Part shown: one piece after another, positions 190 through 35,417 of the stretch | Numbering within the stretch: position 1 is the stretch's first letter | How the letters are laid out: every line of letters starts with the position of its first letter | NCBI GenBank assembly: GCA_947631865.1 | Contig: CANRNF010000025.1 | Coordinates: 1-36,036 of the forward strand | Length of the DNA stretch: 36,036 nucleotides | Direction of reading: 5' to 3' | Source of the DNA: an uncultured Oscillospiraceae bacterium | GTDB taxonomy: Bacteria > Bacillota > Clostridia > Oscillospirales > Oscillospiraceae | Notes under the pieces: model-generated | Told to the model about the DNA's origin: nothing | Databases searched by the model: none | Seen by the model: only the letters and a program-made list of their open reading frames with translations | Translations under genes and position numbers: made by a program

Positions 190-3965
<3,776 letters not shown>

Positions 3966-21103: not shown

Positions 21104-21144
21104 AAAACCGCGTGTTTGCGGGGGAGCGAGGGTATATACCAAAC

Positions 21145-21180
21145 AAGGCTTGTCCGATAAGTTCGGACAGGCCTTGTGCT
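21145..21180 (+). terminator. Terminator after lysS
   Basis: AAGGCTTGTCCGA (21145-21157) pairs with TCGGACAGGCCTT (21163-21175) over 13 bp with one G-U and a 5-nt loop. The tail GTGCTTTG is only mildly T-rich. Confidence 0.75.
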
Positions 21181-21213
21181 TTGTATCAGGAGGCGGTTTG
21201 CGGCATCACTATC

Positions 21214-21243
21214 TTGCCAGACCAGGCTTTATCGTGCTATATT
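21214..21243 (+). promoter_or_regulatory. Promoter of the two-component genes
   Basis: TTGCCA (21214-21219), an 18-bp spacer and TGCTATATT, an extended -10 (hexamer 21238-21243), lie about 105 nt before the response regulator start. The leader in between (21250-21348) contains no hairpin I would defend. Confidence 0.7.
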
Positions 21244-21348
21244 AATAAAGAAGACGGATCCCTCTGCCGGGACGCCAAGCGTATGATGGGCTACTTCCGC
21301 CGGGCTGCCGCCCGCGCCCACGCCGCCTCAGAGAAAGGAAGCGGAACG

Positions 21349-22074
21349 ATGCTTAAAATATCTGTTTGTGATGATGAGGCCGAGGAGAGGAAAAAGATCG
21401 CGGATAATCTCCGGGTCTACGCTGCGGCACATGGTGAGCATGGCGTCGAATTTGACGTATATTCGTCTGCGCTTGAAATGCTGGAAGCATTTGACAAAAC
21501 AGGCGGTCCTGATATTGCTCTTTTGGATATTTGTATGCCAGACATGCTGGGAACAGAATTGGCACGGGATATTCTGCGCTTCAGTGAAAATACCGACATC
21601 GTCTTTCTGACGACCAGCTCGGACTACGCGGTCGACGCCTTTTCCATACATGCCGCAGACTATATCTGCAAGCCTTACACGCAGGAACAATTTGACGCGG
21701 CCTTAGACCGGGTCATTGCCAAGCGTGAGCAAAGAACGTGGATCCTTCTCCGCTGCGAGGGAGAACTGCACCGCATCGCGCTGGAAGATATTTTGTACGT
21801 AGAGACCAGAGACAAACAACGTGTGTTTTCCCTGGCCTCCGGGAAAAAGCTTTCTGTGTGGTCATTGCCAACGCAGCTTCAGGAATCTATTATGGGCAAA
21901 AAAGGCATGACCATGTGCGGGAGTTCTTTTATCGTCAATCTGAATCATGTTCGCTGCTTTTCCGGTGCGGATCTGCTCATGGATGATGAGACACTCATCC
22001 CTGTTCCAAGGAGGTGCCGCTCCGAGCTGAAGCAGGCGTATTTTGAGTTTTACTTAAAGGAGGCAGTAAACTGA
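21349..22074 (+). CDS. LytTR-family response regulator
   Basis: 241 residues. The receiver domain has the acidic pair Asp8/Asp9, the phospho-acceptor Asp60 (ALLDICMPDMLG) and Lys108 (YICKPY). The C-terminal LytTR DNA-binding domain (about 138-238) includes ILYVETRDKQRVF and the SSFIVNLNHVR block. Such regulators bind pairs of short direct repeats two helical turns apart. The frame is open to 21112, but the upstream part crosses the promoter and reads as low-complexity sequence; ATG 21349 has AAAGGA nine nt before it and gives a perfect receiver N terminus. It overlaps the kinase gene by one base. The GC content is visibly lower than in the neighbouring housekeeping genes. Its likely target is the operon promoter at 23525-23594. 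Confidence 0.95.
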   Translation: MLKISVCDDEAEERKKIADNLRVYAAAHGEHGVEFDVYSSALEMLEAFDKTGGPDIALLDICMPDMLGTELARDILRFSENTDIVFLTTSSDYAVDAFSIHAADYICKPYTQEQFDAALDRVIAKREQRTWILLRCEGELHRIALEDILYVETRDKQRVFSLASGKKLSVWSLPTQLQESIMGKKGMTMCGSSFIVNLNHVRCFSGADLLMDDETLIPVPRRCRSELKQAYFEFYLKEAVN

Positions 22075-23354
22075 TGCCGGCGATTCAGATAATCATGATC
22101 GCCTTTTTTGTCAGCTTGTTGTTTTTTGCAACACATCTGACGGCAGGACTTTTGCTGCAGGAGAGAAAATACCCGGTAAAAAAGACGGCGCTGCTGTGGG
22201 GGTCGGCGGGGATTTTCCTTTTTCTGGATTGCTGCGCCAGCTTTCTTCTTCTGTCAAAGCCATGGAGGATGCCGGCTGCTTTGACGTTTTCGTATCTGTA
22301 CTTTTGGGGAATTTATACATATGTGTCAGCAGACGGATTTTGGAAGAAGTGCTATCTTTGGATCACATATGGCTGTGCGTTCTGCATTTCGCTGTCCATT
22401 TCATTTTTGGGATGTTATGTGCTTGTGCCGAACGGCTCAGAGACGTTTGTATACTTTATGCGAGGTGTGGTCTATGGCGTTATTTGTTTTGCGCTTTCAT
22501 TTGTGTATTATAAATACGGCAGACCGATCATTCGCGAGATCAGCGGATTTCGTACAAAAAACTGGATATCGCTGAGCATCGTCTCCATAATATATTTTTT
22601 CGCGTTCGTGATACTTTTGTCAAAGATCAGTGCAGACAACGGGATCAATTCAAACACCCTGCTCCTCTTCTCCCTGCTCGTGTGTTCTTTTGCCGTAGCG
22701 AACATCCTGATGATCAGCAGCATCCATCAGATGCGCAAGGAGGCAAGGGACGAATTGGTAAAGCAAAACGTTGAGTACCTGATGTCCTATATGGAAAATG
22801 CGCGGAAAACTGAGCAAGAGAACCGGCGGATCCGTCACGATCTGCGCCATCACGATGAGCAGATCGCGGCAATGGCCCGGGAGGGCAACACAGAGGGGAT
22901 CTTAGCGTATTTGGGGCAGAACAAAGAGGCGCCAGAACGTTTTCCCGCGTGGTGTCCGAACGTCACGGTCAACGGCATCCTGAGCTCTTACGGGGGGAAG
23001 GCAAAAGAGGCGGGCGTGGGATTTCATGCGCAAGCGGATACTCCAGCCCAGTCGCCAGTCTCCGATGTGGATCTTGTGGCGATCCTCGCCAACCTTCTGG
23101 AAAACGCGCTGAATGCCTGCGTTGCGCGGAAAAGCGCCGGTCCTATTCAGGTCCATGTCAGAAATGTAGGGAATAAAATGGTGATCGCCGTCAGCAATCC
23201 CTGCGGCGCGGATATGAAGCTGGAAAACGGGCTGCCGGCCGCGCGGGGCATCGGGATCGACAGCATCATTTCCTCCTCTGTCAAGTATCATGGGGAGATC
23301 AACTATACGATCCAGGAGGGCATTTGTACTGCCTGTGTGATCCTCAATCCGTAG
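22074..23354 (+). CDS. AgrC/GHKL-type sensor histidine kinase
   Basis: 426 residues. Six or so membrane segments fill the first 215 residues with no large extracellular domain. They are followed by a dimerisation region with the phospho-acceptor block RIRHDLRHHDEQ (His near residue 254) and a GHKL ATPase domain. The N-box is ILANLLENALNAC and the glycine box ARGIGIDSI. This is the layout of quorum-type AgrC kinases and of the many HPK10-like kinases paired with LytTR regulators. No peptide precursor gene is seen nearby, so the signal is unknown. The pair is closed by three stacked hairpins immediately downstream. Confidence 0.93.
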   Translation: MPAIQIIMIAFFVSLLFFATHLTAGLLLQERKYPVKKTALLWGSAGIFLFLDCCASFLLLSKPWRMPAALTFSYLYFWGIYTYVSADGFWKKCYLWITYGCAFCISLSISFLGCYVLVPNGSETFVYFMRGVVYGVICFALSFVYYKYGRPIIREISGFRTKNWISLSIVSIIYFFAFVILLSKISADNGINSNTLLLFSLLVCSFAVANILMISSIHQMRKEARDELVKQNVEYLMSYMENARKTEQENRRIRHDLRHHDEQIAAMAREGNTEGILAYLGQNKEAPERFPAWCPNVTVNGILSSYGGKAKEAGVGFHAQADTPAQSPVSDVDLVAILANLLENALNACVARKSAGPIQVHVRNVGNKMVIAVSNPCGADMKLENGLPAARGIGIDSIISSSVKYHGEINYTIQEGICTACVILNP

Positions 23355-23524: not shown

Positions 23525-23557
23525 CGACCAATTTCGGAATCAAAACGACCAATTTCG
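23525..23557 (+). promoter_or_regulatory. Paired direct repeats, predicted LytTR binding site
   Basis: CGACCAATTTCG occurs twice without mismatch, at 23525-23536 and 23546-23557, spaced 21 bp start to start (two helical turns). LytTR regulators bind such paired direct repeats beside the -35 region. The site ends 31 bp before the -10 hexamer and the adjacent genes encode a LytTR regulator. Binding is inferred. Confidence 0.8.
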
Positions 23558-23585: not shown

Positions 23586-23594
23586 TGCTATAAT
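23586..23594 (+). promoter_or_regulatory. Extended -10 promoter of the transporter operon
   Basis: TGCTATAAT (23586-23594) is a perfect extended -10. The matching -35 position (23566-23571) reads CCCGAT, far from consensus, which fits a promoter needing an activator. An AT-rich initial transcribed region follows. Confidence 0.8.
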
Positions 23595-23615: not shown

Positions 23616-23792
23616 ATGGAAAAGAGCGAAGATCCGCTCGACATGGATGATCGTTATAAAGATCATAGATCGATCTATTCTGGAGGTAAGACCGTGAACA
23701 AGCAGGGTGAGATGCGGATCAAAAATGTGAACAAAACGGTCATGGAAGTGTTTGAGGTCACGGGTTTTTCAGACATTTTAACGATCGAGTGA
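23616..23792 (+). pseudogene. Short ORF holding only the C-terminal end of a STAS domain
   Basis: A 58-codon frame from ATG 23616, or 32 codons from GTG 23694, which has GGAGG (23682-23686) 7 nt upstream. The last 26 residues (MRIKNVNKTVMEVFEVTGFSDILTIE, given here as blocks MRIKNVNK, EVFEVTGF and SDILTIE) match the final helix and strand of SpoIIAA/RsbV-type STAS proteins. The phosphorylatable serine region and the rest of the ~100-residue domain are missing. It is probably a deletion remnant of an anti-sigma-antagonist-like gene. A retained short peptide that still docks to the ATPase-like domains downstream cannot be excluded. Ten nt separate it from the next gene. Confidence 0.65.
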
Positions 23793-23802
23793 GGTAATAG
23801 AT

Positions 23803-25392
23803 ATGGTGAGCAGCCGCAGTGAAAACTTCATCCTGTCCGCGAAGACGATCGACACAGTATCCGGGATATGCGTGCAGGCGCTTACGGAAGCGGGAGCGGA
23901 TAAAAAGGATATCATCCGCATCCGCCTGTCCCTGGAGGAGATCCTGGGCGTCTGGCTTGGATCTTTGGAGGGCGCTTCGGTCCATGTGGACTGCGGACAG
24001 AGATTTGGACGGGCGTTTTTGAAAGTAAGCGTGGATGGCCCGACTATGGACGCGTGGGATAACGAGGAATTGGTTCTCAGCGGCCGCATGCTCTCCCAGG
24101 CAGGGCTGTCGTTTACATACGCTTATAAGAACGGGAAGAACTGTCTGGTCTGCAATCCCAAGAAGAAAAAATCGTCTATGGGACAGCTGGCTTTTCTCTT
24201 GGGCGCGGTTTTCCTGGCAGCGTTCCTGGGTTTCGCCATGAGGCGGGCCCCGGCCATGCAGACAGCGGCCCTTTCGGTCACGGAGCCCCTGTTCAATATG
24301 ATCCTGGGGGCGCTCCGGGCGGTCTCGTCCCCGCTGGTGTTCCTGGCTGTCTGCTGCGGGATCGTGAGTATCGGCGATCTGACGATGGTAGGCAGAGTGG
24401 GCAAAAAACTGATCTTCAGAATGGTCGCGGGGACATTCGTTTTAGCGGTGGTCATGGCATTTGCGGGCTGCCTGCTGTTCCCGATCGCCGCGGAAGCGGA
24501 AAGTGGGATCACCGGCAATTATTCGGCGATCTATCAGATGGTGCTGGAGATCGTGCCCTCGGACATCGTCTCGCCGTTTTTGAACGGAAACGCGCTGCAG
24601 CTGGTGTTTCTGGGTATCTGCGTGGGAGCCGCCCTTTTGATCCTGGGCGATCGGGTATCGGCGGCCCAGACTACCCTGCTGCAGGTGAACGAGGCTGTAC
24701 AGTTCCTGATGAGCGTGCTGGGAAAGATCATTCCGCTGTTCGTGTTTTTATGCCTGTTCAACCTTATCCTGTCCGATTTTGACAGCGGGATCTCAAGCCT
24801 GTTCAAAGTGTTTTTGATCACAGTACCGGTGTGTTTTGTCCTGACACTGTTTTATGTGTTTGTGGCGGCGATGAAGCTGAAGGTCAGCCCTGCCCTTCTG
24901 ATAAGGAAAATGCTGCCGACTTTTCTGATCGCCCTGACGACAGCTTCCTCGGCTGCCGCCCTGGCGACGAATTTGGAGACATGCGTGAAGGAACTGGGCA
25001 TCCCGAAAAAGGTGGCGGATTTTGGCATCCCGCTGGGACAGGTCCTTTACAAGCCGGGCTTTGTGGTGGGTCTTTTTTCCCTGGCCCTGTGCATGGCGGA
25101 GTCCTATGGCATTCCCATCACGCCGATGTTCCTCTTTATGTCGGTCTTGACGACAGGGCTTCTGTCCATGGCGCTGCCGCCGATCCCCGGCGGGGCCCTA
25201 TCCGTGTTTACGGTCATGTTTGCACAGCTTGGCATTCCCAGTGAGGCGCTGGCCCTGGCGGTCGCGGCCAATGGGATATTGGACTTCTTTATGACGGCGG
25301 CGGGCGTGGCCTGCCTGCAGGTGCAGGTGACGCTCGCGGCGGACAATGTTGGGATGCTTGACGAAAATAAGCTGAAAAGGAGCATGTCATGA
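23803..25392 (+). CDS. SDF-family (dicarboxylate/amino acid:cation) symporter with N-terminal ATPase-like domain, copy 1
   Basis: 529 residues. Residues 1-118 are cytoplasmic and resemble a degenerate RsbW/SpoIIAB-type ATPase fold: [18 protein letters not shown] in the N-box position and a late [15 protein letters not shown] block. A basic linker (NPKKKK) leads into an SDF transporter with about eight membrane segments. The hairpin-tip region reads [12 protein letters not shown], recognisable against the family's serine-rich SSxATLP motif. However, the sodium-binding NMDGT motif is replaced by LYKPG, and the usual substrate Asp/Arg block near the C terminus is not preserved. The substrate and coupling ion therefore cannot be assumed. 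GTGAGGT serves as ribosome site. The stop overlaps the next start. Confidence 0.85.
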
Positions 25393-28300
25393 TGAAAAAT
25401 AAAAAATTCTGGCTTTGCCTGTCCGTGATGATCCTTCTTATATGCCTGCTCCTTGGCGGCTGCGGGAAAAGCGACGACGGGAAAAGCGGCGGGGAGACCG
25501 AGCAGATAACCGATATCCGCCAGCTGGACGGACAGGCCATCGGCGTGATGACCGGCTCCAGCTTTGATGTGCTCACCGACGAGTTCATCGAGAACGCGGA
25601 CAAGCAGTATTATGACAAGGTCCCGGATCTGGCCTTGGCGGTGGAACAGGGGAAGATCGCCGGTTTTTTGATGGACGAACCTATCGCCCGTACACTGTGC
25701 CTGGAAAACCCGGCGGTGACCTATCTGCCCGATAAGCTGGTGGAAGAGAGCTACGCCGCCGCTTTTGCAAAGACCGAGCGCGGCGCGGCGCTGCGGGACG
25801 AGTATAACGAGTTTTTGGCGCAGATCAAGGCGGACGGCACCTTGGAGGAGATCGACGACATTTGGCTGGGCGCCGACGAGAGCAAAAAGGTGGTGGAGGA
25901 CTGGACAGCCTTCCCGGCGGACAACGGCGTCATCCGCATGGCGGAAAAAACGGACGTGGCGCCCTTCTGCTATATCAAGGACGGCAATATCGTCGGGTAC
26001 GACGTAGATATCATGGTCCGTTTCTGCAAGGCCCGGGGCTATGCTCTGGAAGTGACTGGCGTGGAGCTGGCGTCTATTTTCGCGGGCCTTGGCACCGGTG
26101 CGTATGACGTATCGGCCACCGGCCTGACCGTGACGGAGGAACGGGCGGAAAGCGTGAATTTCGCCGAGCCGAGCTACACCGGCGGCGTAGTGGCGGTGGT
26201 AGCCAACCGGGGACAAAGCCAGGCCCGCTTCCAGACGCTCCAGGATTTTTCCGGTGCAACAGTGGGATTGGTGACAGGTACCATTGGTGACCAGCTTGTG
26301 GACGCTGTGGTCAGCGGCTGCGAATATCAGTATTACGATGATATTTCCGCGCTGCTTCTGGCGCTGCAGTCGGGCACGGTGGACGCCGCAGTGGCCGATA
26401 TGCCCGTGGCCCAGCTGGCGGTGGCCAGGCAGCCGGATCTGGCCATATTCCCCGAGACAGTGACGCCGGACACCTACGGCCTGGGTCTGCAAAAGGACAG
26501 CCCCCTGACGGATAAGATAAGCGCCATCATCGAGCGATATACGGAAGACGGTACGCTGGACGCCCTGCGGGAGAAATGGCTGGGCGCTGACGACAGCAAA
26601 AAGACCATCGACGTGGGCGAGTATGACGCGCCCAACGGCACCCTGCGCTATGTCCATGACTCTGCGCTGGAGCCTATGAGCTATGTGGGCGGGAACGGCC
26701 AGTCCCTGGGCTATGAGGTGGAGCTGGTCTCGCTCATCGCCAAGGAGCTGGGGATGGAGCTGGAGATCACCCAGGGCTCTTTCAATTCGCTGATCCAGAT
26801 GCTCGGCAGCGGCCGGGCGGATATCGTGTCCGGCGCCATGAGCATCACCGATGAGAGGAAGCAGAGCATCGATTTCCCCACCACCCATTATGTGGGCGGC
26901 CTGACGTTCGTTGTCCGGGGCGAGGATATGGGCGTGGGCGCGGCCGCAGAAGAGGATGAAACGGGCTTCTGGGCTGGGCTCAAAAACAGCTTTTACAAGA
27001 ACTTCATCCAGGAAAACCGGTGGCAGATGATCCTCTCCGGCCTGGCCGTCACGTTCATCATATCGATCTTCTCGGCGCTGTTCGGCACGGTGCTGGGCTT
27101 TGGCCTGTGCCTGCTGCGCCGCAGCCATAACAAGGTAGCCTCCGGCATCACGGCGGCCTTTGTCCGGCTTATACAGGGCGTCCCGGTGCTGGTGCTGCTG
27201 ATGGTGCTGTTCTACGTGGTCTTCGCCGGGGCGAGGCTGGACGGGATCGTCGTGGCCATCATCGGCTTCACCATCAACTTCGGCGTCTATGTCTCCGAGA
27301 TGATCCGCACCGGCATCGACGCCGTGGACGTGGGCCAGTGGGAGGCGGCGTCCGCCATGGGCTTCGGCCGGGTCAAGACCTTTACGAAGATCATCGCGCC
27401 CCAGGCGGCGCGGCATATCCTGCCGGTATACAAGGGCGAATTCATTTCCATGGTGAAGATGACGTCCGTGGTGGGGTATATCGCGGTGCAGGACCTGACC
27501 AAGGTGACCGACCTCATCCGCAGCCGGACGTTTGAGGCGTTCTTCCCGCTGATACTGACGGCGGTACTGTATTTCCTGCTGGCGTGGTGCCTGACCTCGC
27601 TGCTGGGACTGGTGGAGAGGAAGATCGATCCCCGCCGCCGGCGCCGGAAACCGAAGGGCGTGGACAGGAGCGTTGCCATTCCGGATGCCCCGGAAGAGGC
27701 GAAGGCCGCGCAAAACGGGGGACCGGTCATCACGGTTTCCCATTTGAAGAAGGTATATCCCAACGCGACGCCCCTGAAGGACGTGAACGCTGTCATAAAC
27801 CAGGGGGACGTCATCTCCATCATCGGACCTTCCGGTACGGGCAAGAGCACCTTCCTGCGCTGCATCAACCGGCTGGAAACGCCGACGGAAGGCGAGATCC
27901 AGGTGTTCGGCCAGCCGGTGACCGGCGTGAAGCCGGCGCAGCTTGGCGCCGTGCGCCGCCGGATGGGTATGGTGTTCCAGAGCTTCAACCTGTTTGCCCA
28001 CCTGACGGTGATCGAGAATATCATGCTGGGGCCGGTGGAGCTGCTGGGCTGCACCCGGCAGGAGGCCTATGAACGGGGCATGCGCCTGCTGGCCAAGGTG
28101 GGCCTGGCGGAAAAGGGGCTCAACTATCCGGATGAGCTCTCCGGCGGCCAGAAGCAGCGTGTCGCCATTGCCCGCACCCTGGGGATGCAGCCGGAGATCG
28201 TGCTCTTCGACGAGCCGACCAGCGCGCTGGACCCCACCATGGTGGGAGAGGTGCTGGCGGTCATCCGCAGTCTGGCCGAGCAGGGACTGACCATGCTCAT

Positions 28301-28811
28301 CGTCACCCATGAGATGAAGTTTGCCCATGATGTATCCACGCGGGTATTTTACATGGACGAAGGTATCGTCTACGAGGAGGGGGCGCCGGAGCAGGTGTTC
28401 GATCGGCCGAAGACCGACCGCTGCCGGGCGTTCGTCCACCGCCTGAAGACCCTCCATCTGGACATAGACTCCAAGGGGTTCGACTTTATCGGCGCGGCGA
28501 GCGACATCGACCGTTTTGCCCGAAAGCAGCTGCTGGGCGCGCCGCAGTCGCTGAAGTATCAGCAGATATTTGAGGAGCTGTGCGTGACGAGCATCCTGCC
28601 GACCCTGCCGGACGAGGGGTGCGGTCTGAGCTTCGACGCCCTTTGCAGCGAAGACGGGAGCGAATGCGAGGCCGTCATCCGCTGGAGCGGGGCAAAGTTC
28701 GACCCGCTGACGCAGGGAGATGAGCTGAGCGCGACGCTGGCTCTCAGCCGGACCAAGAGCAGCGCCCACGCCTATGCCGGCGGGGTCAACACGGTGACCA
28801 TCGTATTCTAA
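25389..28811 (+). CDS. One-polypeptide amino acid-type ABC importer with C-terminal ATPase-like domain
   Basis: 1140 residues. A lipoprotein signal ends at LLLGGC (Cys near residue 21). A substrate-binding region follows in an odd order: a lobe-2-like half (38-165), then a complete SBP_bac_3 domain (about 170-412), then a lobe-1-like half (413-520). A HisM/GlnP-type permease (about 543-745, with the loop [14 protein letters not shown]) and a HisP/GlnQ-type ATPase (about 778-1015) come next. The ATPase has [28 protein letters not shown] and THEM. The last 120 residues form a degenerate RsbW-like domain ([13 protein letters not shown], then [13 protein letters not shown] and [10 protein letters not shown]). 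All importer parts thus sit in one chain, likely for a polar amino acid or similar solute. AAAAGGAG precedes the ATG by 6 nt. Confidence 0.88.
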
Positions 28812-28831
28812 TTTTTAAATGAGGAACCGCT

Positions 28832-30418
28832 ATGGAAAACGTGGAAGCAAGATATGACCTGACTGGGCCTGGCATCGACGACGCCGGGGAGGCGGCTTAC
28901 AGCTTCCTCACGGCGGAGAAGGTGGAGCGGAAAGACGCCCTGCGGGTGCGGCTGGCCCTGGAGGAGGCGCTGCTGCGGTACCGGGACGAGGGGACGGCGG
29001 AGGGGTTCACTTTGCGCTGCCGCCGGCGCTTTCGCGCCCCGCGGGTGGAGCTTTCCCTGTCCGGTCCGTCCCTGGACCCCTTTTCGGAGGAGGACCAGCC
29101 CGACAGCGGTGCGCTGACGGGCATGATGGCCCAGATGGGGCTGGCGCCCCTGTGGCAGTACAAGGACGGGGCGAACCGCATCCTCTTTACCCCCAAGCGG
29201 AAAAAACACTCCCTCATGGGCTCCCTGGCCATCGCCCTGGTGCTGGCGGTGGCGCTGGGCTATCTGTGCCGGCTCCTGCCGGAGGCGGCCCGCCTCGCGC
29301 TTTCGGATAAGCTGGTCTCGCCCCTTTTCAACACCTTCATGGGCTTGCTCACCGCCATATCCGGCCCCATGATATTCCTGTCGGTGACCTGGGGCATCTG
29401 CTGCATGGGGGACGTGGCCTCCTTCGGCCGGATCGGCAAGCGGTTGATCGCCAAGCTGATCCTTCTCACCGTCATATTGGGGATCATCGCGGGTGCGGCC
29501 GTGCTGCCCTTCTTCCCCCTGGCCGCGGGGGGCGGCCAGGCCTTCGACCCATCGGAGCTGATGGACATGGTGCTGGACATCGTGCCGGCCAACTTTTTCA
29601 CCCCCTTCACGGAGGGAAATCCCCTGCAGATCATCTTCGTAGCGGTGCTCATCGGTATAGCGCTGCTGCTTTTGGGAGAGAAGGTCTCCGTGGCGGCCAC
29701 ATTCATAGAGCAGTCCAACTACGTGGTGCAGCTCATCATGGAGGCGGTGAGCTCTCTGGTGCCTGTGTTCGTGTTCGGCAGCGTCTTCAAGATGTTCCTG
29801 GGAGACGGGTTCCGGCTCCTGGTCCGGTCCTATAAGCTCCTCCCCGTCATAGTCCTGGGCACGGCGGTGATGATGGCGTGCAGCCTCGCGCTGGTGTGTG
29901 TCCGGTGGAAAGTCGGGCCCATGACGGTGCTGAAAAAGACCATGCCCACCTTCCTCATCGGCCTGAGCACAGCGTCCTCTGTGGCTGCCTTTCCCACCAA
30001 CCAGGAGTGCTGCGAACGGCAGCTGGGCATACACGAGAAGATCACCCGCTTCGGCATCCCCCTGGGGCAGGTCATATACATGCCCGGCGCGGTGGTGATG
30101 TTTCTGGTCGCCAGCCTGTGCATGGCGGAGATATACGGCGTGGCTATCACGCCGGCGTGGCTGCTGACGGCGCTGTTCATCTGTGTGATGCTGGCCATCG
30201 CGGCGCCGCCCGTGCCAGGGTCGGCGCTGACATGCTACACGCTGCTGTTTACCCAGCTGGGCATACCCATGGAGGCGGTGGCCATTATAACGGCCCTGAA
30301 CGTGATATTGGAGTTCATCGCCACATCGTCGGACCTGTTCTGTCTGCAGATGGCGCTGACGGACCTGGGCGGCTCGCTGGATATGCTGGACATGGACGCC
30401 CTGCGGAGCAAGACTTGA
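28832..30418 (+). CDS. SDF-family symporter with N-terminal ATPase-like domain, copy 2
   Basis: 528 residues, a paralogue of the symporter at 23803 with the same architecture. Residues 1-120 form the ATPase-like domain: RKDALRVRLALEEALLRY, then SGPSLDPFSEEDQ and QYKDGANRILF. A basic linker TPKRKK and an SDF transporter follow. The hairpin region is LSTASSVAAFPTN, and the NMDGT position reads IYMPG, again unlike characterised glutamate/aspartate carriers. The two copies bracket the ABC fusion, and all three share the extra domain. There is a 20-nt gap to the gene upstream and 51 nt to the permease downstream. GC content is higher than in copy 1, so the two are old paralogues rather than a fresh duplication. 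Confidence 0.85.
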   Translation: MENVEARYDLTGPGIDDAGEAAYSFLTAEKVERKDALRVRLALEEALLRYRDEGTAEGFTLRCRRRFRAPRVELSLSGPSLDPFSEEDQPDSGALTGMMAQMGLAPLWQYKDGANRILFTPKRKKHSLMGSLAIALVLAVALGYLCRLLPEAARLALSDKLVSPLFNTFMGLLTAISGPMIFLSVTWGICCMGDVASFGRIGKRLIAKLILLTVILGIIAGAAVLPFFPLAAGGGQAFDPSELMDMVLDIVPANFFTPFTEGNPLQIIFVAVLIGIALLLLGEKVSVAATFIEQSNYVVQLIMEAVSSLVPVFVFGSVFKMFLGDGFRLLVRSYKLLPVIVLGTAVMMACSLALVCVRWKVGPMTVLKKTMPTFLIGLSTASSVAAFPTNQECCERQLGIHEKITRFGIPLGQVIYMPGAVVMFLVASLCMAEIYGVAITPAWLLTALFICVMLAIAAPPVPGSALTCYTLLFTQLGIPMEAVAIITALNVILEFIATSSDLFCLQMALTDLGGSLDMLDMDALRSKT

Positions 30419-30469: not shown

Positions 30470-31882
30470 ATGCTATCACTGGAAAAAATATTTCATGTAA
30501 AGGAAGCCGGCTCTACAGGGAAGACGGAAATTCTGGCAGGCGTCACGACCTTTATGACCATGGCGTATATCCTCATGGTCAATTCCAGCATGTTTGCGGA
30601 GCTTCCGGGGGTGTCCTATAACGCGATCTATATCGCGACGGCGATCTCCGCCTGTATCGGGACGGTGCTGATAGGCCTTCTGGCGAATATCCCGCTGGCG
30701 CAGGCGTCCGCCATGGGCGCCAATGCCTTTTTTGTCTATACGGTGTGCTTCGGCTTTGGGCTCAGCTATGCCAATGCCCTGGTACTCGTTCTGCTGGACG
30801 GCATCCTGTTCATCCTGCTCACGGTGACGGGACTGCGAAAGAAAGTGTTTGAGGCGATACCGACGCCGGTGAGGGTGTCGATCCCCGCGGGCGTGGGGCT
30901 GTTCATCGCCTTCATCGGGCTGAAGGATTCCGGGATCGTGGTGGCGGATCCGTCCACCTATGTAGGTCTTGCCTCCTTCAACCTTCTCTCCGGAAATGTG
31001 GCGTGGAAGGACATCATGCCCATGCTTATCACGATCGCCGCTTTGGTCGCGATCGCGGTCCTGACATGCAAGCGGGTAAAGGGCGCTGTGCTCTGGGGGA
31101 TCCTGGGAGGAACGGCGCTGTATTACCTTCTCGGTCTTACGGTACCCGGATTTTATGGCGGGGGGGGGGTCACAGATAGTCTGAGTTTTAACCCGCTCGC
31201 GGCATTTGGGGACTTTGGCAGACATGCCTTCGGCAAGGTCTTTACGGAGGGCTTTGATTTTTCGCCCTATTTGGCCGATCACAGCAAAATGGAGCTTGCC
31301 GTCTTGATCATAACGACGGCGCTGGCGTTCTGTCTGGTGGATATGTTTGATACCATCGGCACCCTGTATGGAGCCTGTGCCAGGGGCAATCTTCTGACCG
31401 AAGAGGGGGAAGTGCCCAACATGGACAAGGCGATGCTCGCCGACGCCATAGCCACCACGTGCGGCGCGATCTGCGGCACCTCCACGGTGAGCTCTTATGT
31501 GGAGGCCTCCACAGGCATCGCGGAGGGCGGAAAGACAGGCATGGCCGCCATGGTGACGGGGGCGCTGTTCTTTGTCAGCATGTTTTTGAGCCCCATCGCG
31601 AAGCTGGTGCCGGGATGCGCGACAGCGGCGGCGCTCATCTATGTGGGGATCATGATGATGAACTGCGCCAGAAATATAGACTGGCTGAAAACAGAGGAGG
31701 CGGTCCCGGCATTTCTGACCTTGGCGATGATGCCCATGACCTACAATATCTCTTACGGCATCGCCTTCGGCGTGATCTCCTATACGCTTATCAGCGTGTT
31801 TACCGGAAAGGCTAGAAACGTAAAAGCGGGGACATGGGTGATCGCAGCGCTCTTTTCCGTCATGTTCTTTGTGACGCATTGA
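30470..31882 (+). CDS. NCS2-family nucleobase permease (PbuG/AzgA-like), copy 1
   Basis: 470 residues, multi-pass. The N terminus (EKIFHVKEAGSTGKTEILAG, TTFMTMAYILMVN) and the GANAFFVYTVCF and DMFDTIGTLYGA blocks are typical of the AzgA/PbuG branch, which takes up hypoxanthine, guanine or adenine with protons. The conserved STVSSYVEASTGIAEGG segment is present. The substrate is not decided by sequence. The reading frame crosses a run of ten G at 31160-31169 and depends on its exact length. A ribosome site of moderate quality (GAGCGAGG) precedes the ATG. Confidence 0.92.
   Translation: MLSLEKIFHVKEAGSTGKTEILAGVTTFMTMAYILMVNSSMFAELPGVSYNAIYIATAISACIGTVLIGLLANIPLAQASAMGANAFFVYTVCFGFGLSYANALVLVLLDGILFILLTVTGLRKKVFEAIPTPVRVSIPAGVGLFIAFIGLKDSGIVVADPSTYVGLASFNLLSGNVAWKDIMPMLITIAALVAIAVLTCKRVKGAVLWGILGGTALYYLLGLTVPGFYGGGGVTDSLSFNPLAAFGDFGRHAFGKVFTEGFDFSPYLADHSKMELAVLIITTALAFCLVDMFDTIGTLYGACARGNLLTEEGEVPNMDKAMLADAIATTCGAICGTSTVSSYVEASTGIAEGGKTGMAAMVTGALFFVSMFLSPIAKLVPGCATAAALIYVGIMMMNCARNIDWLKTEEAVPAFLTLAMMPMTYNISYGIAFGVISYTLISVFTGKARNVKAGTWVIAALFSVMFFVTH
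31160..31169 (+). repeat. Homopolymer run of ten G inside a permease gene
   Basis: Ten consecutive G encode part of a GGGG loop in the NCS2 permease (FYGGGGVTDS). Gain or loss of one base would truncate the protein, making this a candidate slippage site or a sequencing-error site. Confidence 0.9.
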
Positions 31883-31914
31883 GAACCGTCACGAAAGAAT
31901 AAGGAGGAATCACG

Positions 31915-32793
31915 ATGGAACATGACTATGGAATCGAGCGCAGGCTGGCCCAATGCGCGCCGGAGCTGCACAGCCGGTATCGGGACTGCGTGGTGGTCTC
32001 GCAGAAAATGCTCAGCCGGTATGAGAACTACTTTCCCGACTTTACCGATCATACGGTTCTGCATTCCCTGGATATCCTGGATTTTTGTAATCAGCTCATT
32101 GGCGGCCAGGTCGGGAAGCTCACGGCGGAGGACCTGTATGTGCTGCTGATGGGCGCGCTGTTCCATGATATCGGCATGGGCGTGTCCGTATCGGACTTCG
32201 AGGAATTCCGGAAGGTGCTGGGATTTCCGGAGCCGGCGGATGAGACGGCGCTGGCCTGGGCTGTACGGGACCACCACCAGGAACTGTCCGGACTGTACCT
32301 AAAAAAGTATTGGCACTTGATGGATCTCCCCACGGAGGCCTACGCAACGGCTGTGATCCAGGTCTGCCGTGGGCACCGGAAGACAGACCTTTTGGATACG
32401 AAGGACTACCCGCCCCAGTTCGAGGTGGAGCCAGGAAAAACGGTGAGCCTGCCCTATTTGGCAGCACTGATCTGTCTGGCGGATGAACTGGACATCGCCG
32501 CCGACCGCAATATCAGTTTCCTGTATGATGTGGAGAGGATGCCCAGCGCCAGGGACCGCCAGGAATTCCACAAGCATATGGCTATCCGCCGTGTGGAGCT
32601 GACGCCGGACCGGGTGGTGGTCCACGCCTGGACAGAGGACCCGGAGGTCCGAGTGGGCGTACAAGATGTAACCGACAAGCTTCGTGACAAGCTGCTGCTG
32701 TGCCGCCGGGTGGCGGCGGAGCGCTCCTCCTTTGTCATCACGCAATCTGACGTAGTATTGCGTATGGAGAAGCCGGAGGAGACGGAGCTATGA
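31915..32793 (+). CDS. HD-domain metal-dependent phosphohydrolase-like protein
   Basis: 292 residues, cytoplasmic. HD-superfamily metal ligands are visible: TDHTVLHS (His46, His50), FHDIGMG (His84-Asp85) and a late Asp in LADELDIAADRN (about residue 190). The pattern HSxxxLxxCN ... ALFHDIGM resembles the HD-CE type HD domains rather than HD-GYP cyclic-di-GMP enzymes, since no GYP motif is present. HD proteins cleave phosphate esters, often in nucleotides, which would fit the nucleobase permeases on either side, but the substrate is not known. AAGGAGG lies 7 nt before the ATG. The stop overlaps the next permease start (ATGA). Confidence 0.85.
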   Translation: MEHDYGIERRLAQCAPELHSRYRDCVVVSQKMLSRYENYFPDFTDHTVLHSLDILDFCNQLIGGQVGKLTAEDLYVLLMGALFHDIGMGVSVSDFEEFRKVLGFPEPADETALAWAVRDHHQELSGLYLKKYWHLMDLPTEAYATAVIQVCRGHRKTDLLDTKDYPPQFEVEPGKTVSLPYLAALICLADELDIAADRNISFLYDVERMPSARDRQEFHKHMAIRRVELTPDRVVVHAWTEDPEVRVGVQDVTDKLRDKLLLCRRVAAERSSFVITQSDVVLRMEKPEETEL

Positions 32794-34097
32794 AAGTGTT
32801 GGACCGTCTGTTTCACCTGTCGGACTACCATACCACCGTTCGGCGGGAGCTGCTGGGAGCGCTGACGTCCTTTTTCTCGGTGGCGTATATCCTGTTCGTC
32901 ACGCCAAGCTATCTGTCCATGACAGGTATGGACTATACCGGCGTCCTGCTGGCCACCTGTGTGTCCTCGGCGCTGGCCTGTTTTCTGTCCGCCGCCTTTG
33001 ATCTGCCCTTCATGCTGGCCCCCGGGGTGGGTCTCAACGCGTTTTTCACCTATACCCTCTGCCTTACCATGGGCTATACCTGGGCCCAGGCGCTGGCGGT
33101 GGTGAGCCTGTCCGGGATAGCGTATCTGGTGATCAGCCTGACGCCTCTGCGGGATCAGATGATCTCCTGTATCCCGCCCAGCATGAAGAACGCCATCAGC
33201 GCGGGTCTGGGGCTGTTCATTGCCCTCATCGGGCTGTTGAATTCCGGCATCGTCCAGGCGCAGGACGGCGCGCTGCTGCTGGGGGATATCGGCGCCCCGG
33301 CCACCTTCCTGGCCATTCTGGGCCTGCTGATCACGGGCGTGCTGATGGCCTGGAAGGTGAAGGGCGCCCTGCTCATCGGCATCGTGGCGACCACGCTGCT
33401 GGGGTTCCCTCTGGGGGTGACGCAGGCGCCGGAGTCCATGAGGCTGGACCTCGCCGCCCTGCGGCCGCTGCTGCTGTCTGCTGACTTCAGCGGGGTGTTC
33501 TCTCTGGGGATATTGCCCTTGATCACAGCCGTCGTCACCTTTACCATGTGCCTGTGCTTTGACACCCTGGGGGCGCTGATCTGCATTGCCGGAGCGGGAG
33601 ACCTGCTGGACGAAAAGGGCGGTCTGGGCCGGTACAGCCGGGGCATGACGGCGGTGGCCCTGTCCACCGCTGTGGCGCCGCTACTGGGCGCGCCTGCCAT
33701 CGGTATCCCGGTGGAGGGCTCCACCGGCGTGGCGGACGGGGCCCGGACGGGGCTGTATACCGCCGCCACCGGCGTGCTGTTTTTGGCCGCCATCCTGCTG
33801 GCCCCCATCGCGGGGATGATCCCCGGGGCGGCTACCTCGCCGGCCCTTGTGCTGATCGGGATGCTGATGATCCACAACGCCACCAACATTTACTGGCATC
33901 AGGTGGAGATCGCCCTGCCCTGTTTTCTCACGATGATCATGATCCCCTTCACCTATTCTGTGGCGGACGGTATCGGCGTTGGCTTCATCTCCTACACCGC
34001 CATCAGCCTGGTCAGCGGGAAAGGGAAGAAGATCCCCCCGGTCACCTATATCCTGACCGCCATGTTCGTGGTCATGTACGTCCTTTCGGCGATCTAG
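32790..34097 (+). CDS. NCS2-family nucleobase permease, copy 2
   Basis: 435 residues. It is related to the permease at 30470 but shorter and diverged: VLDRLFHLSDYHTTVRRELL, GVGLNAFFTYTLCL, CFDTLGALICIAG and a GIPVEGSTGVADGART block in place of the SSYVEASTG one. The translational coupling to the HD gene (ATGA overlap) suggests the two proteins are needed together. The substrate is unknown: purine, xanthine or uracil are all within the family. Confidence 0.9.
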   Translation: MKVLDRLFHLSDYHTTVRRELLGALTSFFSVAYILFVTPSYLSMTGMDYTGVLLATCVSSALACFLSAAFDLPFMLAPGVGLNAFFTYTLCLTMGYTWAQALAVVSLSGIAYLVISLTPLRDQMISCIPPSMKNAISAGLGLFIALIGLLNSGIVQAQDGALLLGDIGAPATFLAILGLLITGVLMAWKVKGALLIGIVATTLLGFPLGVTQAPESMRLDLAALRPLLLSADFSGVFSLGILPLITAVVTFTMCLCFDTLGALICIAGAGDLLDEKGGLGRYSRGMTAVALSTAVAPLLGAPAIGIPVEGSTGVADGARTGLYTAATGVLFLAAILLAPIAGMIPGAATSPALVLIGMLMIHNATNIYWHQVEIALPCFLTMIMIPFTYSVADGIGVGFISYTAISLVSGKGKKIPPVTYILTAMFVVMYVLSAI

Positions 34098-34109
34098 GGG
34101 GTGAGAGAG

Positions 34110-35417
34110 ATGAAACAACTGGACCGATTCTTCCGCCTGTCCCAGCGGGGCACGACCATAGGCCGGGAGATCCTGGGCGGGTGCACCACATTCTGCTCCG
34201 CGGCATACCTGATCCTGGTCATCCCGAACCTGCTTTCCGGCGCGGGCATGGACGTCAATGAGGTCATGACGGCCACCTGTCTGATCGCCGCTCTGGGAAG
34301 CATCCTATTCGGACTGGTGTCCAACCTGCCCTTCGCGCTGGTTCCCGGACTGGGATTTCCCACGCTGTTCACCTATACCCTCTGCCAAGGGTATGGCTGC
34401 ACCTGGCAGCAGGGCCTGGCCCTGGTGCTGCTGTCCGGCGTGCTGTTTCTGGCTTTGGCGCTCAGCCCTTTGCGGCAGCGGCTGAACGACGCGCTGCCCA
34501 TGCCCTTCAAGTTTGCCCTGTCCGCCGGGTTGGGGCTGCTTCTCACGCTCTCCGGGCTCATCAACGCGGGGCTTATCACCGCGGATGAGAACATCGTGGA
34601 TATGGGTGCGCTGACCGCCCCAGGGCCTTTGCTGGCGCTGCTCGGTATCTTCATCACAGCCGTGCTGGTGATGAAAAAAGTACCCGGCGCGCTCATGATA
34701 GGTGTCGCGGTGACGACATTGCTGGGCATCCCGCTGGGAGTGACCGTCCTGCCCCAAAGTCTGACGGCCGCCCCGAAACTGTCTCTCGCTCCGCTGAAGC
34801 CGGACTTCACCGGCCTTTTGGCCCTGGGTCCCATCCCGCTCATCTCCGCGCTGCTCTCCCTGGTGGTGGCGCAGCATTTTGACGTTTTGGGCACCCTTCA
34901 AGGCGTGGCGGGCGATACCAAGCTGACGGACACGACCGGCGATCTCGCCGGGCAGAAGGAAGCGTTTCTTTGCTGCGGGGCCGCCACCTGCGCCGGTGCG
35001 GTGCTGGGGGTCACCAATGTGATCGTCGTGGCGGAATCCGCCACCGGCATTCGGGAGGGCGCCCGCACGGGCCTTTCCGCTGTAGTGACCGGCCTGCTCT
35101 TCCTCGTCGTGATCCCGTTCACGCCCCTGGTGGGGATGGTGTCCGGCGCTGCGCTGGCCGCTCCCCTGGTCTTGGTGGGTATGTTCATGATGAGCGGCAT
35201 CACGCAGATCACCTGGAAGCATACAGAGATATCTCTGCCCTGTTTTCTGATGATCGTTGGAATGCCCTTTACGTTTTCCATCACGACCGGCGTCATGCTG
35301 GGGGTAGTTTCCTATGTGGTGGTGATGGTGTGCCGGAAACGGGCCGCGCTGGTGGACCCGGCGCTCTATTTTCTGGCCGCCGTATTTGTTCTCAACGCCG
35401 CGCTGGGCGTGATTTGA
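34110..35417 (+). CDS. NCS2-family nucleobase permease, copy 3
   Basis: 435 residues, closest in look to copy 2 (start MKQLDRFFRLSQRGTTIGRE). Family blocks are present but eroded: GLGFPTLFTYTLCQ in place of GANAFFVYT, and QHFDVLGTLQGVAG in place of DMFDTIGTL. This divergence suggests a changed substrate. A GTG nine bases upstream (34101) is in frame, but GGGGGTGA (34097-34104) fits as the ribosome site of ATG 34110, so I take the ATG. It is the last gene of the operon; repeat copy B starts three bases after the stop. Confidence 0.9.
   Translation: MKQLDRFFRLSQRGTTIGREILGGCTTFCSAAYLILVIPNLLSGAGMDVNEVMTATCLIAALGSILFGLVSNLPFALVPGLGFPTLFTYTLCQGYGCTWQQGLALVLLSGVLFLALALSPLRQRLNDALPMPFKFALSAGLGLLLTLSGLINAGLITADENIVDMGALTAPGPLLALLGIFITAVLVMKKVPGALMIGVAVTTLLGIPLGVTVLPQSLTAAPKLSLAPLKPDFTGLLALGPIPLISALLSLVVAQHFDVLGTLQGVAGDTKLTDTTGDLAGQKEAFLCCGAATCAGAVLGVTNVIVVAESATGIREGARTGLSAVVTGLLFLVVIPFTPLVGMVSGAALAAPLVLVGMFMMSGITQITWKHTEISLPCFLMIVGMPFTFSITTGVMLGVVSYVVVMVCRKRAALVDPALYFLAAVFVLNAALGVI

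Follow-up and report, generated by a model that had tools for sequence, protein, structure and literature searches.

Three transporters encoded side by side in a 36,036-nucleotide stretch of DNA from an uncultured Oscillospiraceae bacterium (contig CANRNF010000025.1, positions 1 to 36,036; hereafter the window) each carry an extra domain that is related to the RsbW/SpoIIAB anti-sigma kinases and has lost the ATP site. Two of the proteins belong to the SDF symporter family (SDF1 and SDF2), and the third is a single-chain ABC importer. We propose that the domains are docking sites for RsbV-like STAS proteins, and that the target of the switch is transport and not a sigma factor. We put the probability of this reading at about 0.5. 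The window is contig C25 of a draft genome of 3.0 Mb in 150 contigs that is 87% complete.

The three open reading frames (ORFs) were found where a preliminary description, made from the letters of the DNA alone, had placed them. Its layout, with the extra domain N-terminal in both SDF symporters and C-terminal in the ABC protein, was borne out by the ORFs and the Pfam matches of the transporter parts. Pfam matched nothing in the ~120 N-terminal residues of SDF1 and SDF2 or in the ~120 C-terminal ones of the ABC chain, and NCBIfam nothing in the main part of the extra domains (for the ABC protein, among the best 25 of 223 families). Weaker Pfam matches of related families in the ABC protein fell inside its SBP_bac_3, BPD_transp_1 and ABC_tran stretches. 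HATPase_c_2 (PF13581), the Pfam family of the RsbW-type kinases, was unmatched in the three window proteins at E values up to 10, its curated cut-off not being reached, and was weakly matched by 12 of 40 aligned SDF domains (best E 0.0048). The domain limits are close to those first given, with ends now near residue 119 in SDF1 and 118 in SDF2, and a span of about 1020-1140 in the ABC protein.

The sequence marks described as common to these domains are real, and appear as invariant residues in 40 SDF and 22 ABC domains aligned from relatives and the window. Glu45, which stands just before the catalytic-Glu position, and Gly111 and Asn113 of the late G-x-N block were invariant in 40/40 SDF domains; the EE pair and the late Asn were invariant in all 22 ABC domains. 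The catalytic-Glu position itself was acidic throughout both sets (40/40 and 22/22). Profile comparison matched the SDF-domain and ABC-domain profiles to one another (96.1%, E 3e-9), and hhalign matched the domain profiles to RsbW kinases at 98.0% (118 columns) and 96.6% (62 columns), with no match to STAS controls (0.2-0.3%). The SDF-domain profile, A4, also detected the C-terminal domain of a MATE protein (3.6e-8). A direct search of PDB sequences with the SDF-domain profile found nothing meaningful, so the link to solved structures needs the kinase profile or the fold. AlphaFold2 models of the SDF1 and ABC domains were RsbW/SpoIIAB-like, and comparison with the PDB placed anti-sigma factors nearest, above histidine kinases. 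Fold prediction thus did not give the unrelated folds that the preliminary description had named as the contrary outcome. The SDF2 domain was assigned by alignment with SDF1 and not from a fold model of its own; SDF2 matched A4 at E 4.2e-40 in a search of its own genome, a value to which the SDF2 row already contained in A4 contributes. Chance or low-complexity similarity was ruled out by the profile and fold evidence with its controls. An ordinary histidine-kinase ATPase domain was also ruled out, as the anti-sigma structures outranked histidine kinases in both structure comparisons.

The N-box Asn and the glycine-rich lid were missing, as had been noticed earlier, and the G1 Asp was found to be lost as well. 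The N-box Asn was present in 17/17 kinases, one of the 40 SDF domains and none of the 22 ABC domains. The G1 Asp (17/17 kinases) and the G[GA]xG lid (17/17 kinases) occurred in no SDF or ABC domain, and 21/22 ABC domains had Trp at the G1 position. With the ATP site lost, the transporter domains can no longer be kinases. Alignments and profiles, joined for SDF1 and the ABC protein by predicted folds, establish the domains as descendants of RsbW/SpoIIAB anti-sigma kinases that are now pseudo-kinases. Such domains may act like the binding half of an RsbW kinase. From the known topology of these transporter families, we take the domains to lie on the cytosolic side.

A search of 84,980 species genomes gave 76 related loci (best 80 of 107 matches kept). 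Among named genomes of the collection, the closest relatives carry Clostridia labels (Oscillospiraceae, Lachnospiraceae and others), many of which include the name Lapin and probably point to rabbit gut; the nearest SDF1 was 96% identical. Of the 76 loci, 75 had the N-terminal domain; in L099, the exception, the match begins at a contig end. Among genomes of the same family, 21 of 150 gave a match at E 1e-30, and 12 of these, our own included, matched into the N-terminal domain. The SDF-domain profile matched 8 of 295 sampled genomes of the order, our own included, and the trait is thus patchy. It might be argued from the lost ATP motifs, and from the decay of the neighbouring STAS gene in the window, that the domain does nothing and is just a neutral trace of a fusion made long ago. 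We regard this as very improbable. The ratio of nonsynonymous to synonymous substitution rates (dN/dS) of the SDF1 domain was 0.14-0.23 in seven comparisons, which argues that the domain is not a relic, and both the three invariant residues and the near-universal presence of the domain in the related loci speak against neutrality.

A tree was built from 18 of the 40 SDF domains, all 22 ABC domains, 17 kinases, 6 MATE domains and 1 SpoIIAB (64 in all). The SDF domains formed one group (support 100/100) and the ABC domains another (98/89). The kinases were weakly supported (54/0), the MATE domains took two placements, and the tree gave long-branch warnings. Given these weaknesses, we draw no conclusion about how many times fusion occurred.

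Partner-switching genes lay near many of the fusions. Using local hidden Markov models (HMMs), we found a STAS gene within 6 kb on the same strand at 31/75 fused loci, a SpoIIE phosphatase at 17/75 and an RsbW kinase at 14/75. At least one of the three was present at 35/75. The phospho-serine motif SSAGLR was found in 36 of the 37 STAS matches of the 76 loci. Forty loci of unfused SDFs from the same family served as control. STAS was matched three times there, each time more weakly (E 3e-6 to 8e-10) and on the opposite strand, and the kinase, SpoIIE and the SDF N-terminal domain had no match. The spans searched were alike, with medians of 13.6 kb (fused) and 13.2 kb (control). Control loci were counted on both strands and fused loci on the same strand only. 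The controls were picked roughly by rank and distance from the contig start, and 13/40 were shortened by a contig end. The partner HMMs were built from sequences that included neighbours of such fusions, and Pfam was run on a sample only. Five of the 76 loci (L084, L107, L119, L125 and L144) apparently repeat records already used (G077 twice, G019, G133 and G025), and some genomes contribute two loci, for example L087 and L102. The survey thus found intact STAS genes beside many homologous operons, where their absence had been named beforehand as counting against the idea.

Clear partner-gene clusters were seen in L067, L062, L061, L069, L114 and L097; labels in these and later descriptions that are glyoxalase-like, GH3-like or methyltransferase-like without a Pfam basis were read by eye. 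Gene order was SDF fusion, STAS, RsbW in L067 and STAS, STAS/APH/RsbW, SDF in L069. In L062 it was SDF, ABC, STAS, glyoxalase-like, SpoIIE, the last detected by HMM in L119, which is apparently the same record. L114, from Flavonifractor sp. An82 (not labelled as a metagenome-assembled genome), had the order SDF, ABC, STAS, glyoxalase, SpoIIE/RsbW, CstA plus purine permease, and L097 the order SDF, ABC, STAS, SpoIIE/RsbW, HD-CE, permease. The permeases and HD-CE protein downstream of the window's operon match this L114/L097 type of cluster. No sigma factor was present among ten neighbouring proteins of the partly annotated clusters L114 and L097.

Other features of these neighbourhoods recurred. 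Purine-type permeases, HD-CE, CstA and metallophosphoesterase genes surround the switch genes in L114, L097 and the window (30470-35417), as if serving nucleobase and amino-acid supply. In L061, a 402-residue protein directly behind STAS (432-1640, minus strand) has an RsbW-like start by eye and a Pfam glyoxalase match in its second half only; its position is taken in L062, L114 and L119 by a glyoxalase-like protein of ~205 residues.

The preliminary description took a STAS fragment to be the first reading frame of the window's operon. The fragment is real, but it most probably starts at a GTG at 23694 and not at the ATG at 23616, and the frame 23616-23792 includes non-STAS sequence. Alignment with 28 STAS sequences and tblastn placed its 32 codons at residues 67-98 of a 98-residue STAS, with the phospho-serine absent. 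An intact STAS gene stands at this place in L073, L074, L088 and L130, where SDF1 is 76-90% identical, and ends at most ~250 bases upstream of SDF1. Three other relatives inspected (L071, L072 and L077) had no STAS at the corresponding place. The window copy is a remnant, as if it had lost its start codon and everything up to an internal Met. It was ruled out as a working partner, since residues 1-66 including the serine are missing, and the partner must therefore come from elsewhere. Compared with the four intact copies, dN of the remnant was 0.05-0.08 over 30 codons, too few for selection on it to be judged. The end of the remnant overlaps the probable ribosome site of SDF1, and it may thus survive as a translation leader. 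In L090 (1201-1368), a short STAS end (VTGFSDILTIE) is joined to the end of another frame (tblastn E 0.018), and is perhaps a second 3' STAS remnant.

Partner genes were found elsewhere in the source genome. PF13581 and PF07228 were unmatched in the window and matched on other contigs. For PF13581 there were seven matches in the genome, none on the three window proteins and those on C13 and C8 below the cut-off. Contig C3 (L020:5138-12083) carries a cluster of STAS, a MATE protein with a C-terminal RsbW-like domain, a GH3-like gene, SpoIIE/RsbW and a STAS-APH-type kinase. The C3 STAS, directly upstream of the MATE-RsbW gene, is intact, with 98 residues and SSAGLR. With this cluster, STAS, kinase and phosphatase partners are available in trans. 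On contig C38 (5392-5742, minus strand; in L021), a protein of MATE type by eye has at its C terminus an RsbW domain in which the N-box Asn is retained. Against the PF13581 cut-off of 27.4 bits, the C38 domain scored 43.2, and the C3 domain lay at the cut-off (27.5 or 23.4, depending on the search). Several methyltransferase-like proteins on C38, C87, C15 and C9 (L021, L025, L028 and L027) carry a C-terminal STAS domain with SSAGLR; STAS-tagged enzymes are thus common in this genome.

In the mechanism we propose, the pseudo-RsbW domain on each transporter would most likely serve as the place where an RsbV-like STAS protein docks. True RsbW kinase domains, SpoIIE-fused or stand-alone, would place a phosphate on the SSAGLR serine of the STAS protein, and a SpoIIE phosphatase would strip it off on a signal; we infer these two steps from the gene neighbourhoods and the known chemistry of SpoIIAA, SpoIIAB and SpoIIE. 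Unphosphorylated STAS would bind the transporter domains, as SpoIIAA binds SpoIIAB, and so alter uptake. In the source genome, contig C3 would supply the STAS protein, the kinase and the phosphatase in trans. The local STAS gene has decayed to a short leader, whose ribosome site may do no more than couple translation of SDF1.

The presence of one kind of domain on SDF, ABC and MATE proteins of a single genome, the frequent location of SDF and ABC fusions in one operon, and the ability of RsbW-family kinases to dimerise would also suit a dimerisation or assembly module. The domains would then associate among themselves (SDF with ABC) or bind active RsbW, co-localising the transporters or steering the kinase, with no direct contact to STAS. 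We consider this improbable, because it leaves unexplained why STAS is the commonest companion of the fusions (31/75, against 14/75 for kinases).

The transporter cores bear on what the docking of STAS would control. SDF1 and SDF2 both scored above the cut-off of the SDF family profile (PF00375; Table 1). We aligned 115 fused rows (109 distinct) with nine unfused SDFs of the same family. Neither N nor D of the NMDGT motif was kept in any fused row (0/115), the Asn being replaced by Tyr or Phe and the Asp by Pro, Thr, Ile, Leu or Gly. In transmembrane helix 8 (TM8), the Arg and the last Asp were each kept in 0/115 rows (Leu replaced the latter in 113), and the Asn between them was kept in 33/115. 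All nine unfused SDFs kept both NMDGT and D..RT..N..GD. When aligned to a structurally solved aspartate transporter, SDF1 and SDF2 both showed the same loss of NMDGT, and SDF1 also showed that of the TM8 residues. In GltPh, these NMDGT and TM8 residues bind sodium and substrate. Loss of the canonical ligand residues makes it unlikely that the fused SDFs are standard sodium-glutamate symporters; they may carry another substrate, be uncoupled, or act as sensors. The ABC chain has its Walker A, LSGGQ, Walker B and H-loop motifs intact and conserved, and its ATPase domain is nearest in sequence to polar-amino-acid/ArtP ATPases of the PDB. It looks like a working importer of the polar-amino-acid (PAAT) type. 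In L126, the ABC parts are split into frames of 750 and 383 residues, with the RsbW-like end on the 383-residue one.

The loss of ligand residues makes a sensor role a serious rival, and the main one; we judge it less likely than control of transport. Information would then flow in reverse, the proteins being transceptor-like: the SDF cores and the ABC chain with its three binding proteins would sense external amino acids, and the pseudo-RsbW domains would hold or release STAS and thereby report the nutrient state to the partner switch. The consistent difference between fused and unfused SDFs fits such a role, a domain without an ATP site can only bind, and some of the relatives encode STAS and SpoIIE/RsbW alongside the fusions. 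The intact ATPase motifs of the ABC chain, however, belong to what looks like a working importer, and no downstream target was recognised in the partly annotated clusters L114 and L097. Purifying selection on the SDF core (dN/dS 0.13-0.29, similar to that of the SDF1 domain) does not separate a sensor from a transporter.

Several observations weigh against STAS docking as a means of transport control. The ligand residues of the SDF cores are a first point, since their loss is as compatible with a sensor as with a regulated transporter. In the window, STAS survives only as a remnant. Forty of the 75 fused loci had no partner gene within 6 kb, many of them being cut by contig ends; among the 29 loci with full 6-kb flanks, 15 had no partner gene and 14 had one. 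Finally, the difference from the control loci gave Fisher p values of 9e-5 for STAS and 1e-5 for any partner, which overstate independence because the loci are interrelated, several come from one genome, and two of those with STAS (L119 and L125) fed the STAS model.

The features of the window are collected in Table 1. A LytTR regulator and a GHKL kinase lie directly upstream of the operon and are conserved there in 14/76 loci. The regulator probably starts at the Met at 21349, as its receiver domain begins near residue 85 of the ORF. The direct repeat between these two-component genes and the operon is perfect, and in seven related loci ACCAATTTCG occurs twice behind the regulator genes with the same spacing. 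Under the repeat rule for LytTR operators, the repeat with its 21-bp period is a candidate LytTR operator. Transcription of the operon is probably set by the upstream two-component pair.

Table 1. Coordinates of genes, domains and candidate control elements in the window
Feature	Position	Strand	Basis
LytTR-type response regulator	21112..22074	+	Pfam Response_reg 2.5e-15, LytTR 6.2e-9; at least 80% identity in 14/76 related loci
GHKL sensor histidine kinase, paired with the LytTR regulator	22074..23354	+	Pfam HATPase_c_5 4.9e-10; at least 78% identity in the same 14/76 loci
Direct repeat GACCAATTTCG x2, 21-bp period, candidate LytTR operator before the operon	23526..23557	+	0 expected, 100 window shuffles
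TATAAT, candidate -10 element	23589..23594	+	Read from the sequence; absent from the consensus-scan list
Remnant STAS gene, most probable start GTG, 32 codons; GGAGG ribosome site 23682-23686	23694..23792	+	TIGR00377 E 1.4e-4, alignment with 28 STAS, tblastn
SDF1: N-terminal ATP-less RsbW-like domain and SDF membrane core with non-canonical ligand motifs	23803..25392	+	Pfam SDF 4.2e-55, residues 132-502
RsbW-like domain of SDF1, residues 1-119	23803..24159	+	
Single-chain polar-amino-acid-type ABC importer, 1140 residues, C-terminal RsbW-like domain	25389..28811	+	Pfam SBP_bac_3 x3, BPD_transp_1 569-746, ABC_tran 796-945
RsbW-like domain of the ABC protein, residues 1020-1140 (approximate)	28446..28808	+	
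SDF2: N-terminal RsbW-like domain and SDF core	28832..30418	+	Pfam SDF 2e-64, residues 131-499
RsbW-like domain of SDF2, residues 1-118	28832..29185	+	Alignment with SDF1 (row 2 of A4) only
Purine-type permease, recurring cluster member	30470..31882	+	Pfam Xan_ur_permease 2.9e-32; similar gene in the L114 cluster
HD-CE domain protein, recurring cluster member	31915..32793	+	Pfam HD-CE 9.5e-38; similar gene behind SpoIIE/RsbW in L097
Purine-type permease	32790..34097	+	Pfam Xan_ur_permease 7e-23
Purine-type permease	34101..35417	+	Pfam Xan_ur_permease 2.5e-22

Partner switching is known mainly as a way of freeing sigma factors; in this case its parts seem to be connected to membrane transport, through pseudo-kinase domains that gut Clostridia carry repeatedly on transporters of unrelated families. 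STAS docking, if true, would allow uptake (or nutrient sensing) to be controlled quickly and reversibly by phosphorylation, and degenerate RsbW domains would have a role. More tentatively, we suggest a general post-translational nutrient switch of gut Clostridia, in which STAS would dock on the ATP-dead RsbW domains of SDF-like, ABC and MATE proteins. The SDF-like members, without classical sodium coupling, would be receptors or STAS-gated carriers, and amino-acid and purine supply would be coupled to membrane transport without a sigma factor. Partner switching itself is known; pseudo-RsbW domains on three transporter families, with STAS nearby in many relatives, were not found described. In searches of the open-access literature in PubMed Central (PMC), which mostly leaves subscription papers and preprints outside, no paper among the top matches listed appeared to describe RsbW-type domains fused to transporters.

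The window proteins share parts with several known systems. The extra domains stand closest to the RsbW, SpoIIAB and UsfX anti-sigma kinases, and the SDF1 and ABC domain models have the RsbW/SpoIIAB fold. Unlike these kinases, the window domains are fused to transporters and lack the N-box Asn, G1 Asp and lid, and the partly annotated clusters L114 and L097 contained no sigma factor. The membrane folds and overall family are those of GltPh-type SDF symporters and PAAT importers. The fused SDFs differ from the GltPh type in lacking NMDGT and the TM8 Arg and Asp, and the window ABC protein differs from PAAT importers in having three substrate-binding parts, permease and ATPase in one chain. The MATE proteins with a C-terminal HATPase_c_2 domain (C3 and C38) show the same idea in a third transporter family, although the C38 domain, unlike those of the window, has retained the N-box Asn and scores above the Pfam cut-off. 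In the SiaABCD system of Pseudomonas aeruginosa, SiaA is the phosphatase and SiaB the kinase. SiaC and SiaD (PMC8457831) show that the direct target of a switch protein can be something other than a sigma factor. That target is an enzyme with stalk motifs and not a transporter, and the abstract of PMC8457831 mentions no RsbW-like domain on it. The phosphorylation cycle of SpoIIAA, SpoIIAB and SpoIIE is established (PMC11418112). The SulP/SLC26 proteins (PMC8256260) are like the window proteins in being transporters that bear part of the partner-switching toolkit. There the STAS domain is fused to the transporter; in the three window transporters, STAS was unmatched in Pfam at E values up to 10, and it is the kinase-like partner domain that is fused, with STAS as a separate protein.

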